The notes under the pieces: generated by a model
What the model was told of the DNA's origin: nothing
The model's input: only the letters and a program-made list of their open reading frames with translations
Database searches by the model: none
Source: Methanoculleus sediminis
GTDB lineage: Archaea; Halobacteriota; Methanomicrobia; Methanomicrobiales; Methanoculleaceae
Reading direction: 5' to 3'
DNA: 55,319 nucleotides
Assembly (NCBI RefSeq): GCF_001017125.1
Contig: NZ_JXOJ01000002.1
Location: 105,597-160,915, forward strand
In this document: one piece after another, positions 6,543 to 37,296 of the stretch
How the letters are laid out: each line of letters begins with the position of its first letter
How positions within the stretch are numbered: position 1 is the first letter of the stretch
Translations under genes and position numbers: made by a program

Positions 6543-6581
6543 GAGCGGTTCCGGATACTACGATTCCAGAGGAGTGATATC

Positions 6582-7529
6582 ATGCAACCGAACCCCAATA
6601 ACTCGGATAAAAAACCGGCCGACAGGCTCCTGAAGATGCCGGGCAGACGCGAACGCGGGCCGGTCGATTTCAAGACAAAGATCGCCGGGTATGAAGGCGA
6701 GATCATGGCGATCGCCACGAGAGATGTCGTCGTGGCGCAGCAGACGACCACGATCATCCAGGCAGTCGGGATCATGACCCGGGAAGGGTTCCGCAGGCTG
6801 CCGGTCGTCGACGCGGGGACGCGCCATCTCCGGGGGATCGTAACCGTCGGCGACATCATCAACTTCATGGGCGGCGGCGACAAGTTCAACCTCGTTCAGG
6901 TGAAGCACGGAGGGAACTTCCTTGCGGCCATCAACGAGGGGCTCCGCGAGATCATGACCCCGCACCTGGTCACCATGCCCGTAACCGGCGCCATCGCCGA
7001 CGCGGTCGAGATCATCGTCAACAAAAACATCGGCGGCATCCCCATCACCGACACCGACGGGGAACTGAAGGGTATCGTGACCGAGCGCGACGTGATGAAG
7101 GTGCTCACCACCGAGCACTCGGGCCGCAAGGCGGAGGATATTATGAAACCTTCGGTACGCGTCACCAGCCCCGACACCTCGATCGGCAATGTCTGCCGGG
7201 AGATGGTGCGATGCCGGTTCAGGCGCCTTCCGGTCGTTACAGACGACGTTCTCTGCGGGATCGTTACCGCCACCGATATCATGAGTTATCTCGGGAAGGG
7301 CAAGGCTTTCGAGCAACTGACGACTGGGGACTCCGCCGAGGTCATGGGAGCGCCGGTGCGGTCCCTCCTTTCAGGGGAACTTCACACCATCACGCCCGAC
7401 CGGAACATCCACGACATTGCTCTCGAGATGATCCGGCGGCGTGTCGGGGCGCTCCCGGTCATAGAAGACTCGCACCTTGTCGGCCTCGTGACGGAATACG
7501 ACCTTGTGAAAGCATTTTCTGAGGAGTGA
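6582..7529 (+). CDS. Four-CBS-domain protein with basic N-terminal tail
   Basis: A 315-residue protein. A polar, basic N-terminal tail of about 40 residues (NNSDKKPADRLLKMPGRRER) precedes four CBS units at about 42-100, 123-175, 186-240 and 255-313. Typical signatures are REIMTPHLVTMP, AEDIMKPSVRVT and the closing strand GLVTEYDLV. The tail could bind nucleic acid or a partner; this is inference. The RBS GAGGAGTGAT stands 3-12 bases before the ATG. It is the third gene of the CBS run, 39 bases after the second. Confidence 0.9.
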   Translation: MQPNPNNSDKKPADRLLKMPGRRERGPVDFKTKIAGYEGEIMAIATRDVVVAQQTTTIIQAVGIMTREGFRRLPVVDAGTRHLRGIVTVGDIINFMGGGDKFNLVQVKHGGNFLAAINEGLREIMTPHLVTMPVTGAIADAVEIIVNKNIGGIPITDTDGELKGIVTERDVMKVLTTEHSGRKAEDIMKPSVRVTSPDTSIGNVCREMVRCRFRRLPVVTDDVLCGIVTATDIMSYLGKGKAFEQLTTGDSAEVMGAPVRSLLSGELHTITPDRNIHDIALEMIRRRVGALPVIEDSHLVGLVTEYDLVKAFSEE

Positions 7530-7536
7530 TGCGAAG

Positions 7537-8376
7537 ATGCGTGCCATTGACGTGATGGCGTCTCCGGTGTACGTCGTTGCACCGGGGGATAACGTCGCCT
7601 ATGCGCGAAACCTTATGCTCAAACACCGGGTGTCGAGGCTGCCCGTCATGGAAGGAGACGAACTCCGGGGCATCCTCACCAAGAAGGATATCGCTTACCG
7701 GCTCAGGCAGACGGAACCGATGTGGCGGCGGCGCCCGATCGACCGGATTCCGGTCAGCATCCTGATGGCACCGGAGCCGATCACGATCGCGCCGGAGACC
7801 AGCATCCGCGATATCGCGGCCATCATGCTCGATCGGGACATCTCCGGGATTCCCGTGGTCAACGAAGGAAAGGTGAGCGGCATCGTCACCAAACTGGATC
7901 TGATGCGTTCGGCCCATATCCGCGGGCTCACCGCAAAGGTCGACGAGATCATGGAGGATGCAGTCACGGTCAACCGGTATCACTCGCTCGACCACATCAT
8001 CGACACGATAAAGGGAAAAAACGATAAACTTATTGTCGTAAACGACAATGGAAGCCTTGCCGGCATAATTACGGAGAGTAACCTCGCATTTTACGAGTAT
8101 CTGGACGAGCGGATGAACCTGCCCAAAAAGGATGTTACTCACCTCAGAAAAGAGGGGCCGGCGGGGCAGAAACGCTTCAGATACGTCGTCGAGGTATCGG
8201 CAGTTGCGGAAGACATCATGAGCCGCCCGGTCATTACCGTATCCCCCGATGCATCCCTCCAGGATGCCGTCGGGCTGATGCTGGAGCACCAGATCAACAG
8301 CCTCGTCGTCGTGGAGAACGGTGATATCCGCGGTATGCTCAAGAGAGATGATATCATCAAGGAAGTGGCAAAATGA
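7537..8376 (+). CDS. Four-CBS-domain protein
   Basis: A 279-residue protein made of four CBS units at about 1-55, 70-125, 130-180 and 223-278. Between the third and fourth lies a charged segment of about 40 residues (KKDVTHLRKEGPAGQKR) that breaks the tandem. Motifs include AIDVMASPVYVV, VSILMAPEPITI and AEDIMSRPVITV. It starts 7 bases after the previous stop, with GAGGAGTGAT as RBS, and its stop overlaps the next start (ATGA), so the last three genes are tightly coupled. Confidence 0.9.
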   Translation: MRAIDVMASPVYVVAPGDNVAYARNLMLKHRVSRLPVMEGDELRGILTKKDIAYRLRQTEPMWRRRPIDRIPVSILMAPEPITIAPETSIRDIAAIMLDRDISGIPVVNEGKVSGIVTKLDLMRSAHIRGLTAKVDEIMEDAVTVNRYHSLDHIIDTIKGKNDKLIVVNDNGSLAGIITESNLAFYEYLDERMNLPKKDVTHLRKEGPAGQKRFRYVVEVSAVAEDIMSRPVITVSPDASLQDAVGLMLEHQINSLVVVENGDIRGMLKRDDIIKEVAK

Positions 8377-32657: not shown

Positions 32658-33164
32658 ATGGCAGATAGAATTCTTGTTGCCTACGCCACCCGCTACGGTT
32701 CGACGGCAGAAGTGGCGGAGGCGATCGGCGAAGAACTCCGCAAAGCGGGCGTTGAGGTCGATGTCACGCCGGTGGACGAAGTCCGGGATCTCTCCCCGTA
32801 CCGGGCCGCCGTCATAGGAAGCCCGATATACATGGGGAAATGGCTTCCGGAACCGCAGGTCTTCATCGAGAAAAACCAGCAGCGCCTGCGCACCATCCCG
32901 GTCGCCTACTTCTCCGTGGGGCTCACGGTCACGGACAGAAGCCCCGAGATCCTCAGAAAAGCGGAAGCATCGATGGACGCGGTCAGGATGCTCGTTAATC
33001 CGGTGGAAGTCGGGATCTTTCCGGGCAAACTGGAGAGCAGCGGCCTGTCCTTCACCGACCGCACCATCGTTAAGATGATCCGGGCCAAGACGGGAGACTT
33101 CCGCGACTGGGAGATCGTACGTTCCTGGGCGCAGGCAGTACACAGGAAGCTCACAGCGGCGTGA
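32658..33164 (+). CDS. Flavodoxin-domain protein
   Basis: A 168-residue flavodoxin-fold protein. The FMN-phosphate loop is YATRYGSTAEVAEAIG at the N-terminus, followed by AAVIGSPIYMGKWLPE, typical of the HemG/protoporphyrinogen-oxidase-like flavodoxin branch. It probably carries electrons in the cytosol; the partner is unknown, and menaquinone-linked HemG activity is unlikely to apply in a methanogen. Confidence 0.85.
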   Translation: MADRILVAYATRYGSTAEVAEAIGEELRKAGVEVDVTPVDEVRDLSPYRAAVIGSPIYMGKWLPEPQVFIEKNQQRLRTIPVAYFSVGLTVTDRSPEILRKAEASMDAVRMLVNPVEVGIFPGKLESSGLSFTDRTIVKMIRAKTGDFRDWEIVRSWAQAVHRKLTAA

Positions 33165-33287
33165 CCGGCCGCGACGTAACGGTGTGCAGACACAGGAACC
33201 GCCTCATTTCTCGTTCAGGCTGCCGCAACGCACGAAAAAGTGCTTATAGGACGGCCGCGCACCTATAAAAATCACAAGGTGAACCGG

Positions 33288-34805
33288 GTGAACAAATACT
33301 CTTTCGTAGCCAGAATGCCCGACAAACCGGGCGCGCTGCACCGCGCGGCCGAGATCGTCAAGTCATATTCGGGCAACATCATCCGCATCCAGTATGACCG
33401 CCGGATCGATCCCGCCACGGTCTTTTTCGAGGTGGCCGCAGTACCGGAAAGTTACTCCCGGATGAAGGAAGACCTTCACGCGATCGGCTACCTCCAGGAG
33501 TCGCTGCCCACGCTCGGGTTTCTCAAATTCTCCGTATACCTCCCTCACAAACCCGGATCCCTCTTCGAACTCCTCACCTACATCACCGGGGCGGGGGCGA
33601 ACATCGCCTACATCGACTTCGATGACCGGCGGCACGATCCTGGCAGGGTCACCATCAGCCTGAATGTCGAGGAGACCGCGATCGTCGAGAGCCTGCTCGA
33701 CCGGCTGAAGTCCCGCTACCGGCTCGAGATTCTCGAGTACGACACCACCGGCGAGAAGCTCGACGACACCGTCTTCTACGTCAGGTTCGCCCAGGCGGTG
33801 CGCGGGCTGATCGGGACGGCCGAGGACGAGTTCCTGCTCTCGCTCCTGCAGGACGTCAACCATATCGTCCAGGAACTCAACAGCCTCGGCCAGGACCCGA
33901 GAGAGGTCTTCGAGTCCATCCTGCTCACGGGCCGGACGCTCCGGGACACCACCGGTGACCGGTTTTACGCGGACGTCCAGCGCATCAGCCTCGCCGACGA
34001 CGTCGAGGTCTTCTGCTTCCAGATGCCGGGCGGTGGGAACATCTTCCTGCTCCGGGCCCCGGGCGAGACCGTGATGATCGATACCGGATACGGGATATAC
34101 CACGAGGACGCCGTGCGGATGTTCCGGCACTACGGGCTCGGGGATCCCGGGAATATCCGGAGGATCTACATCACCCATGCCGATGCCGACCACTGCGGGG
34201 CGGGCGGGCTTTTCGAGGCGAAAGCGTATACGCACACCGGGTCGCTCGAGATCATCCGCCGGGCGAACCGGGCATACGGATCGCGCAGCGAGTCCTCGAT
34301 CCTCGAAGAGGTCTACACGACCGTCATCAACCTCTTCTCGCACTTCACCCCGCCCGGGGACCTCGAGGTCTTTCCGGCGGGGCGGATCGGCATGCGCTCG
34401 ATCTTTCCTGTCCTCGCGCGCTTTACGGTCCACGACCTCGAGTTCGAGGTGCTGGAATCTCTCGGCGGGCACATGCACGGCCAGATCTACTTCTTCTGCC
34501 CCACGCACGGGATCATCTTCACCGCCGATACGCTGATCAACTTCGGGAGCCTCGATGAAGAGCGGAAACGCTACAATTCGCTCGCCGACTTCCTGGTGAC
34601 CTCGGTCAACGTCGACAGCGACTGCGCCAGAAGAGAGAGGAAGGCGCTGCTCGAACTGATCCGAAACCTGGACGAGGAACTCGCCCCTTCCGGCCGCCGG
34701 TGCCTGGTCGCGTGCGGTCACGGCGCCATATCCGTCCTCTCGGACGGAAAACTGGAAGCGGTCGGGCGGATCGAACGCTACCGGGCAAAAGAGGGGCAGG
34801 ATTAG
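33288..34805 (+). CDS. Double-ACT domain metallo-beta-lactamase protein
   Basis: A 505-residue fusion. Two ACT domains come first (about 3-75, with MPDKPGALHRAAE; about 80-150, with LPHKPGSLFELLT), then a linker of about 70 residues and a metallo-beta-lactamase domain (about 235-490). The metal motif is H297-x-D299-x-D301-H302; further ligands are a His in GGHMHGQ followed 19 residues later by the Asp of FTAD, and a His in ACGHGA. This spacing resembles flavodiiron proteins, but there is no flavodoxin domain. ACT domains usually bind amino acids, so the enzyme may be amino-acid-regulated. GTG at 33288 is chosen for its AAGGTG RBS; an earlier GTG at 33240 is possible. The 3' end overlaps the convergent permease by 4 bases. 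Confidence 0.8.
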   Translation: MNKYSFVARMPDKPGALHRAAEIVKSYSGNIIRIQYDRRIDPATVFFEVAAVPESYSRMKEDLHAIGYLQESLPTLGFLKFSVYLPHKPGSLFELLTYITGAGANIAYIDFDDRRHDPGRVTISLNVEETAIVESLLDRLKSRYRLEILEYDTTGEKLDDTVFYVRFAQAVRGLIGTAEDEFLLSLLQDVNHIVQELNSLGQDPREVFESILLTGRTLRDTTGDRFYADVQRISLADDVEVFCFQMPGGGNIFLLRAPGETVMIDTGYGIYHEDAVRMFRHYGLGDPGNIRRIYITHADADHCGAGGLFEAKAYTHTGSLEIIRRANRAYGSRSESSILEEVYTTVINLFSHFTPPGDLEVFPAGRIGMRSIFPVLARFTVHDLEFEVLESLGGHMHGQIYFFCPTHGIIFTADTLINFGSLDEERKRYNSLADFLVTSVNVDSDCARRERKALLELIRNLDEELAPSGRRCLVACGHGAISVLSDGKLEAVGRIERYRAKEGQD

Positions 34806-36118
34806 GCGGCGGCCGGTTGCCACGTTCCGACCAGGGCAATCGCCGCACCGATAACGACCACGGCCCCGCCGATCAGCAGCACCAGGGGTTCCAGCTGGGC
34901 GAGGAGAAGGAGGGTCGAGGCGATGCCGACGGCCGGGATGACCGGGAACCTGCCGATGCTGCCCGGTATCCGGAACGGCCGGGCTGCATCCGGAGCACGG
35001 TAGCGGAGCAGGATCACGGCTGCGTTGATGACGACGAACGTCACGAAGAGCGTGAAGTTCGTGACGTTCGCGACGAAGTCGATCTCGCCGGCAAAGAGGA
35101 ACGCGATGGAGGCGAGCAGAACGGCGACGATGGCCGTCCACGGCGTCCGTGTCCGGGGGTGCACCCGGGCGAGGATGGGCGGGAGCGAGAAGGAGGAGGC
35201 CATCCCGTAGATGATCCGGGACGACGCCATCATCATCAGGAGGGCGGTGTTTGCCGTGGCGAAGAGGGCGATGACGGAGATGAGGGTGAACGCCGCAGGG
35301 CCGAGAGCGACGGACGCGACGTCGGCGAAGGGCGCCCGGGACGAGGCGAGCTGCTCCCACCCGACGACCGACACGGCGGCGAGGGAGACCACAATGTAGA
35401 GGAGGACGGAGATGGCAAGCGCGATAATCAGGGCTATGGGGATGGTGCGCTCCGGGTTTCTGGTCTCCTCCGAGAGTTTCACCATCTCCTCGAATCCCAT
35501 ATAGGCAAAGAAGACGAGCGCGGACGCCTGCAGGAGGCCCGGAACTCCGAGAGGCATATCGAAATAGTCCACCCGCCCGAGGTGCGGAAGGCCGATCACG
35601 ATGACCATGACGATCCCTCCTACCTCGATGAGGGTCATGGCGATGGCGGCCCGGGCGGTCTCCTTGATGCCGTAGAAAAGGATCCCGGCAAGGACGAGGA
35701 GGATCAGGACGGCGGAGGGAATGCGCGGGAAGCCGACGAGATCCGAGAAGTAGCCGGCAAACCCGAGCGAGACGGTTGCGGCCCCGAGGATGCCGGAGAA
35801 GATGATCAGCCACCCGACGACGAACGCAAGCCTCCTCCCGAAGGCGTTTCTGACGTACTCGAACTCGGCGCTCGCGCGGGGGAACATCGACGAGAGTTCG
35901 GCGTAGCCGAGTGCGCTGAACGCAGCGATGGCGGCGGCGACGGCGAACGTCAGCCAGACGGCGTTGCCGGCCATGCCGGCCGCTTCCCCGAGCAGGGCAT
36001 AGATCCCGGCCCCGAGGATGATCCCGACGCCCGAGAGGGTGACCGCGGGCAGGCCGAGTTCGCGCCGGAGTTTCGTTCCGGGAGTCGGGGCGTCCCGATC
36101 CTCGTTTGGCATGTACAA
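34802..36118 (-). CDS. APC-family amino acid permease
   Basis: A 438-residue membrane transporter of the amino acid-polyamine-organocation superfamily with about twelve hydrophobic segments. The first helix carries GIILGAGIYALLGE, the unwound glycine motif for substrate binding, and SALVFFAYMGFEEMVKLSEE matches helix 6 and its loop. Substrate unknown; cationic or branched amino acids are common in the group. The tail-to-tail 4-base overlap with the ACT-MBL gene is suggestive only. A second ATG six bases in is an alternative start. Confidence 0.9.
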   Translation of the reverse strand: MYMPNEDRDAPTPGTKLRRELGLPAVTLSGVGIILGAGIYALLGEAAGMAGNAVWLTFAVAAAIAAFSALGYAELSSMFPRASAEFEYVRNAFGRRLAFVVGWLIIFSGILGAATVSLGFAGYFSDLVGFPRIPSAVLILLVLAGILFYGIKETARAAIAMTLIEVGGIVMVIVIGLPHLGRVDYFDMPLGVPGLLQASALVFFAYMGFEEMVKLSEETRNPERTIPIALIIALAISVLLYIVVSLAAVSVVGWEQLASSRAPFADVASVALGPAAFTLISVIALFATANTALLMMMASSRIIYGMASSFSLPPILARVHPRTRTPWTAIVAVLLASIAFLFAGEIDFVANVTNFTLFVTFVVINAAVILLRYRAPDAARPFRIPGSIGRFPVIPAVGIASTLLLLAQLEPLVLLIGGAVVVIGAAIALVGTWQPAAA

Positions 36119-36256: not shown

Positions 36257-36304
36257 TGACTTGCCCCTCATGGCTTCCCTGCAAGAGTGGGGGGAAGTGA
36301 ATCG

Positions 36305-36754
36305 ATGGCACAGAGCGTTATCGATATACTGAAGCAGGAGCACGAGATGGTGCTCTCGCAGCTCTCGGAACTCTCGAGCACCGGCACGAGCAACCGGGAA
36401 CAGAAGTACAACTCCTTGAAAGAGAACCTCATACCGCACATGATCGGGGAGGAGCAGGCCGTATATCCGAAACTCATGGATTCGGGGATGAAGGAGATAG
36501 CACTCGAGTCGATCGAGGAGCACAACGCGGTCAAATCGCTCTTATCCCAGCTCGACAGCGCGTCCACGTCGGAAGAGGACGTCTGGGTGGCGAAGATAAA
36601 GGTGATCAAGGAGAACGTGCAGCACCACGTCAGCGAGGAGGAAGAAGAGATCTTCCCCGAGATGCAGCAGAAGATGAGCAGCGACGAACTCTCGAGTCTC
36701 GGCAGCAGTTACGAAGAGGCAAAGAAGAGCGCGATGCCGATGGCGGCACGCTGA
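36305..36754 (+). CDS. Hemerythrin-like (HHE) protein
   Basis: A 149-residue four-helix-bundle protein with hemerythrin cation-binding motifs: KQEHEMVLSQL, HMIGEEQAVYPKL, EEHNAVKSLL and HHVSEEEEEIFPEM. These supply His and Glu for a di-iron site. Relatives bind or sense oxygen or store iron. The ATG at 36305 is preferred over 36287 because GGGGGAAGTGA precedes it. A second such gene follows, so the pair may be a paralogous oxygen or iron defence set. Confidence 0.9.
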   Translation: MAQSVIDILKQEHEMVLSQLSELSSTGTSNREQKYNSLKENLIPHMIGEEQAVYPKLMDSGMKEIALESIEEHNAVKSLLSQLDSASTSEEDVWVAKIKVIKENVQHHVSEEEEEIFPEMQQKMSSDELSSLGSSYEEAKKSAMPMAAR

Positions 36755-36858: not shown

Positions 36859-37296
36859 ATGCCGCAGATTCTTGAATTGATCCGGGAGGATCACGATCTT
36901 ATCAGGGCTCTTTTCGACGAACTCGAGAGCAATCCGGAGACACGGGACGTCCGGTGCATCACGCTTCGCCGGGAACTGCCGGGGCACATGTACGCAGAGG
37001 AGGTTACACTGTATGCGCACCTCCGGGACAGAGTTCCGGAGGAGATCCGGCGGTCGCTCGACGAACACACCGAGGTCAGGGAGACGCTCGTACGTTTCGA
37101 GAGAATCCCCCAGAGAGATGACGCCTGGATGCCGGCGCTCGCCGATCTCCGGGAGCGGGTCGAGGCTCACTTCGCCTCGGAAGAGAGCGAGGTCTTCGCC
37201 CGGGCGGAGGAGCACCTCGGCAGGAATGACCTGTTCGCGCTCAGTGAAACGTTTGAGCGGGAGAAGGTGGCAGCGGCGCGATACATTGCGGTGTGA
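36859..37296 (+). CDS. Hemerythrin-like (HHE) protein, second copy
   Basis: A 145-residue hemerythrin-domain protein, only distantly similar to the preceding one. Candidate ligands lie in REDHDLIRALFDEL, PGHMYAEEVTLYAHL, DEHTEVRETL and HFASEESEVFARAEEHL. The separate spacing (104 bases, with a T-run at about 36784) suggests it has its own transcript. The two genes diverged long ago or came separately. Confidence 0.9.
   Translation: MPQILELIREDHDLIRALFDELESNPETRDVRCITLRRELPGHMYAEEVTLYAHLRDRVPEEIRRSLDEHTEVRETLVRFERIPQRDDAWMPALADLRERVEAHFASEESEVFARAEEHLGRNDLFALSETFEREKVAAARYIAV

Follow-up and report, generated by a model that had tools for sequence, protein, structure and literature searches.

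Hydrolases of the metallo-beta-lactamase (MBL) fold, such as TTHA1429 (2zo4), BcII, LACTB2, glyoxalase II and the lactonases, share with the protein described here their fold, the positions of their ligands, a GH...X18...D arrangement and a GHG signature, but they carry a second histidine in an HxHxDH motif where the present family has aspartate, and they lack the ACT pair and helical linker that stand in front of its catalytic domain. The C-terminal MBL domain of ComEC has the motif II aspartate (D299 here), and an excerpt of the ComEC study attributes to the motif II aspartate pair the binding of Mn(II), not Zn(II), and a Mn-dependent phosphodiesterase activity (PMC8579336); the present protein differs in having histidine rather than asparagine at motif III, in being soluble and in its ACT domains. 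Flavodiiron or ODP proteins likewise adopt the MBL fold, have a carboxylate as third residue of motif 2 and show a His-X18-Asp spacing that is not specific to them, but the carboxylate is glutamate rather than aspartate, the gap from motif 2 to the next histidine is 61 rather than 91-109 residues (about 30 fewer), a flavodoxin domain is fused to the protein, and the signatures LHWPD and APSHG, as read in the same genome, are unlike the GGHxxG and GHG of the present family. ACT-regulated enzymes of amino-acid metabolism (homoserine dehydrogenase, threonine deaminase, the AHAS regulatory subunit and phosphoglycerate dehydrogenase) share the ACT fold and its glycine turn, but their catalytic parts bear no relation to MBL. 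We found no publication on a double-ACT and MBL fusion and no published function for the architecture, in agreement with the initial annotation, which knew of no characterized enzyme of this plan. The sole literature match for ACT with MBL names two unrelated proteins in the part retrieved (PMC7285479), and the sole paper found for HXDXDH is, by its excerpt, a quorum-quenching study naming Y2-AiiA (PMC6146095).

Results

The window, a stretch of 55,319 nucleotides from Methanoculleus sediminis, contains at 33288-34805 (+) a genuine open reading frame with a 505-residue product. Its GTG start at 33288 is supported by an AAGGTGA ribosome-binding site directly upstream (33276-33282) and by the shared start residue of its relatives, several of which use ATG. 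The features to which we refer below are as follows.

33230..33282 (+), promoter-like block and ribosome-binding site: A-rich stretch, TATA-like CTTATAG at 33243-33249, AAGGTGA at 33276-33282
33288..34805 (+), ACT-ACT-linker-MBL gene: 505 residues, GTG start; Pfam and AlphaFold2
33291..33506 (+), ACT domain 1, residues 2-73: AlphaFold2 secondary structure and a sub-threshold Thr_dehydrat_C match
33516..33743 (+), ACT domain 2, residues 77-152: Pfam ACT above cut-off and structure model
33768..33947 (+), helical linker, residues 161-220: structure model; kept in most ACT-less relatives
33963..34787 (+), MBL fold domain, residues 226-500: Pfam Lactamase_B and structure comparison
34176..34193 (+), HADADH motif (H297, D299, D301, H302): all four invariant in 123/123 distinct sequences
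34470..34472 (+), H395, predicted metal ligand: invariant, 123/123
34527..34529 (+), D414, predicted bridging ligand: invariant, 123/123, as is H395-X18-D414
34719..34721 (+), H478, predicted metal ligand: invariant in the 122/122 rows that reach it

The protein had been described from its letters as two ACT domains fused to an MBL domain, and this plan is borne out. The Pfam ACT model scores 35.2 bits (cut-off 27) and reports two stretches, the better at residues 82-142, and Lactamase_B scores 43.8 bits (3.5e-11; curated cut-off 22.7) and matches 23 of the 23 family members tested at E <= 0.01. Modeling of the fold with AlphaFold2, as the initial annotation had suggested, gave two ACT-type units (residues 2-73 and 77-152), each running strand-helix-strand-strand-helix-strand, then helices at residues 161-220 and an MBL fold. 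Confidence in the whole protein was moderate (mean pLDDT 77.3, pTM 0.64) and was higher for the ACT pair modeled alone (86.8); the first ACT domain, which by itself has no Pfam match above cut-off in this protein, is supported by the model and by matches below threshold. Comparison of the ACT pair with the PDB returned ACT proteins, headed by homoserine dehydrogenase 6dzs (Z 11.7, rmsd 1.6, 74 residues aligned), and comparison of the whole model (VIA) matched TTHA1429 2zo4 (Z 17.6, rmsd 2.8, 205 residues aligned), level with BcII and other MBLs. No flavodoxin match was obtained within the protein with Pfam, as had been stated.

The catalytic pattern first read as HxDxDH, His-X18-Asp and Asp-X63-His is exact (HADADH at residues 297-302, H395-X18-D414 and D414-X63-H478), and aspartate does occupy the HxE position; HxDxDH is found in every one of 123 distinct family sequences. 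H297, D299, D301, H302, H395 and D414 do not vary among these sequences, and H478 is kept in all 122 that are long enough, the remaining row ending at a contig edge; invariance of all seven predicted ligands across distinct sequences argues that the motif is not due to chance. The gap from H302 to H395 is X92 here and X91-X109 across the family, and that from D414 to H478 ranges from X52 to X64. H316, which could be mistaken for a ligand, varies (H in 95, N in 22, S in 6). The same 123 sequences have G249, D265 and G394 invariant and N441, R451, Y268, R328 and Q245 nearly so, and the ACT-typical turns G15/L17 and G90/L92 are kept in nearly all ACT-bearing rows. Two genomes (L037 and L038; 8001-9700) have about 60 additional residues within ACT domain 2.

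The question of family spread, also raised by the initial annotation, has a clear answer within the order, where a family-profile search of 135 genomes at least 90% complete found the gene in 128 of them and in every one of the 28 genera. Across 294 genomes sampled from the phylum, 64 carried it (11 from Methanoculleus, 44 from the order and 9 from a further family, f8), and in family f8 the gene is present in 36/111 genomes and 5/14 genera. Outside the phylum, the sole copy seen is carried by a Methanosphaera sp. ISO3-F5 plasmid present as two versions; a contig scan used a single query, missed even 59%-identical copies of family f8 and was thus not exhaustive. The plasmid copy (pNP174, L108, 7989-9410) has the full length of an ACT-MBL gene, is divergent (24.8% identity) and groups in one clade with copies of genus g15 and one f8 copy. 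The gene had no match in phage sequences and was not found in viral contigs. One genome of the order has a 52-residue remnant (G026:C6:58810-58965), and one f8 genome has a copy with five stops (G365:C80:52455-53969).

The flavodoxin gene upstream (32658-33164; Flavodoxin_5, 111.1 bits in Pfam) had been proposed as an electron donor, but the case for such a partnership is weak, as the two genes adjoin only in Methanoculleus. In 22 of the 23 Methanoculleus genomes that carry the ACT-MBL gene, a flavodoxin orthologue shares its contig at a distance of 102-1896 bases (within 322 bases in 16 and at 504-1896 bases in 6), whereas in 13 of 13 other genomes of the order that have the two genes, they are separated by at least 116 kb or are on different contigs. 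One Methanoculleus genome (G004) has the ACT-MBL gene and no flavodoxin match, and two or three (G008, G010 and G409) seemingly have neither gene. The absence in G008 is probably an assembly gap, because the permease that follows the gene sits at a contig edge, and G010 and G409 lack the permease orthologue as well, so that in them the entire block is either absent or not assembled; joint absence in these genomes is no evidence of functional linkage. In M. chikugoensis (L022), an open reading frame of 441 residues (6564-7889) lies between the two genes. Its sequence is repeat-like and signal-like, and gaps of similar size occur in two more genomes. Of 12 upstream regions aligned from Methanoculleus, 8 have an identical GTGCTTATAGG, and in two of these another gene intervenes between flavodoxin and the ACT-MBL gene. 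Judging from the sequence, the block at 33230..33282 may act as a promoter, and because it stays with the ACT-MBL gene despite an intervening gene, the two genes probably have separate promoters.

At its other end the gene is overlapped by a convergent amino-acid permease gene (34802-36118, -; PF13520, 155.1 bits), beyond which lie tandem hemerythrin-domain genes (36287-36754 and 36859-37296, +; PF01814, 60 and 55.3 bits). A search for partners found no neighbor common to all groups and none outside the genus that names a pathway. By names read from sequence, a SIS-domain protein, an aminotransferase and an M42-type peptidase lie 3′ in several Methanoregula/Methanospirillum-type loci, and in family f8 an ADP-ribosylglycohydrolase-like gene and another gene lie 5′.

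Discussion

By a modest balance of probability, the ACT-MBL protein is an MBL-fold dinuclear metallohydrolase under allosteric amino-acid control. Hydrolysis rather than redox chemistry is predicted because the nearest profiles are those of hydrolases: Lactamase_B is the best-scoring MBL family for the protein, the family profile matched TTHA1429, LACTB2, glyoxalase-II type proteins, RNase J, lactonases and BcII, no flavodiiron entry was among the 27 PDB sequences matched at E <= 0.01, and the GGHxxG and GHG signatures resemble those of the aligned hydrolases (GH..., GHG). Amino-acid control is suggested by the presence of the ACT pair. By analogy with known MBL sites, H297, D299 and H395 would hold one metal and D301, H302 and H478 the second, with D414 as the bridge. 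The motif 2 aspartate may move the site from Zn(II) toward Mn(II) or Fe(II), and a metal-bridging hydroxide would attack an ester, thioester, lactone or phosphodiester, while an amino acid bound to the ACT pair would alter activity through the linker. The metal is probably Mn(II) or Fe(II), since Mn(II) rather than Zn(II) is the metal of ComEC, which shares this aspartate, and since MBL enzymes of the iron type also have more acidic sites; the review excerpt that bears on the latter describes the ligand sets of Fe-type MBL oxidoreductases as more acidic than those of Zn hydrolases (PMC7785958). By the same token, the extra aspartate would also fit a di-iron redox site, and superfamily similarity does not firmly separate hydrolases from redox enzymes. 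The flavodoxin and the two hemerythrin-domain genes that neighbor the gene in the window also speak against hydrolysis.

The ACT domains raise the question of whether they regulate the enzyme at all. ACT domains can act as dimer interfaces, and the pair could instead form a dimer or bind substrate in a metallohydrolase whose activity it does not regulate, a reading we regard as unlikely. It draws on g15, a genus with small genomes, in which 22 of 25 genomes have 1 to 4 family copies each and the main copies are without ACT domains, showing that the domains are dispensable there. In a tree of 82 rows (FastTree, midpoint root), in which one row counted as ACT-less (L046) is merely cut by its contig, the ACT-less g15 copies occupy two separate, well supported positions, one of them adjoining an ACT-bearing g15 copy (L198), and the domains were therefore lost at least twice. 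Against a purely structural role, nearly all ACT-bearing members preserve the glycine turn in each of the two domains. The ACT-less paralogues (including L128, L129 and L130) retain every ligand, which points to a regulatory function of the ACT pair where it is present.

We think it improbable that the protein is instead a di-iron redox enzyme or an oxygen or NO sensor of the flavodiiron or ODP kind, gated by amino acids and fed by flavodoxin. Its ligand spacing had been called close to that of flavodiiron proteins, a link that is not supported: His-X18-Asp is generic for MBL proteins and cannot mark a flavodiiron protein, because 4 of 5 non-flavodiiron PDB chains share it, and the gap from HxDxDH to the next histidine, 91-109 in the family, is 61 in both flavodiiron proteins of the same genome. 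Those two proteins (motifs HAEQDH and HIEMDH; spacings X61, X18 and X56/X60) are above the Pfam ODP cut-off and match ODP (5.7e-25 and 3.5e-18) better than Lactamase_B (3.2e-13 and 1.1e-11). The window protein reverses this order, Lactamase_B beating ODP (PF19583), which reaches 17.7 bits (0.0033) against a cut-off of 27.2. In favor of a link, the ODP model is matched at E <= 0.01 by 12 of 23 family members (best 1.7e-05), and the first rows of a Foldseek comparison include ODP chains of T. maritima (6qrq, E 2.0e-07), tied with many hydrolases. With the same ODP model, an ordinary protein of this genome with the motif HAHYDH reaches 20.7 bits, again below cut-off. Flavodiiron chains were absent from the 50 PDB entries listed by VIA for the whole model, which alone excludes nothing. 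Ranked by the family profile among 14 other MBL proteins of the genome (L148, a repeat of L063, was not counted, and a 16th match without a locus was not scored), the flavodiiron pair comes only 8th and 10th. The motif, the gap, the lack of a flavodoxin domain and the score below the Pfam cut-off thus led us to reject membership in the flavodiiron family. A redox function would still be consistent with the acidic residue at the flavodiiron glutamate position, with the acid-rich ligands that the review excerpt ascribes to Fe-type MBL enzymes (PMC7785958), with the flavodoxin neighbor in Methanoculleus and with the two hemerythrin-domain genes nearby in the window, but the flavodoxin is not adjacent in the 13 other genomes of the order with both genes, and the genome already has two flavodiiron proteins.

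Quite doubtful is a Mn-dependent nuclease or phosphodiesterase like ComEC, a Mn-binding nuclease in the excerpt cited, whose motif II aspartate is the same (PMC8579336) but whose motif III has asparagine in place of the H395 found in 123/123 sequences here, and we found no competence, membrane or nucleic-acid-binding domain. Most improbable of all is a di-iron (or Mn/Fe) enzyme, gated by amino acids, whose reaction partner is O2 or NO and whose electrons come from the separate flavodoxin; if true, methanogens of the order would couple oxygen defense to amino-acid status through an MBL enzyme that is not a flavodiiron protein.

The architecture first proposed for this gene stands, and its flavodiiron assignment does not. 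The gene represents a conserved, uncharacterized family of methanogen enzymes and a new domain combination of known parts. Read as a regulated metallohydrolase, the protein would provide a case of an MBL enzyme that amino acids control directly. The family also offers a natural test of how the motif 2 aspartate affects metal choice, and the ACT-less paralogues of one genus are natural controls for what the ACT pair does. Because nearly every genome of this methanogen order retains the gene, it probably serves a basic, so far unassigned step.
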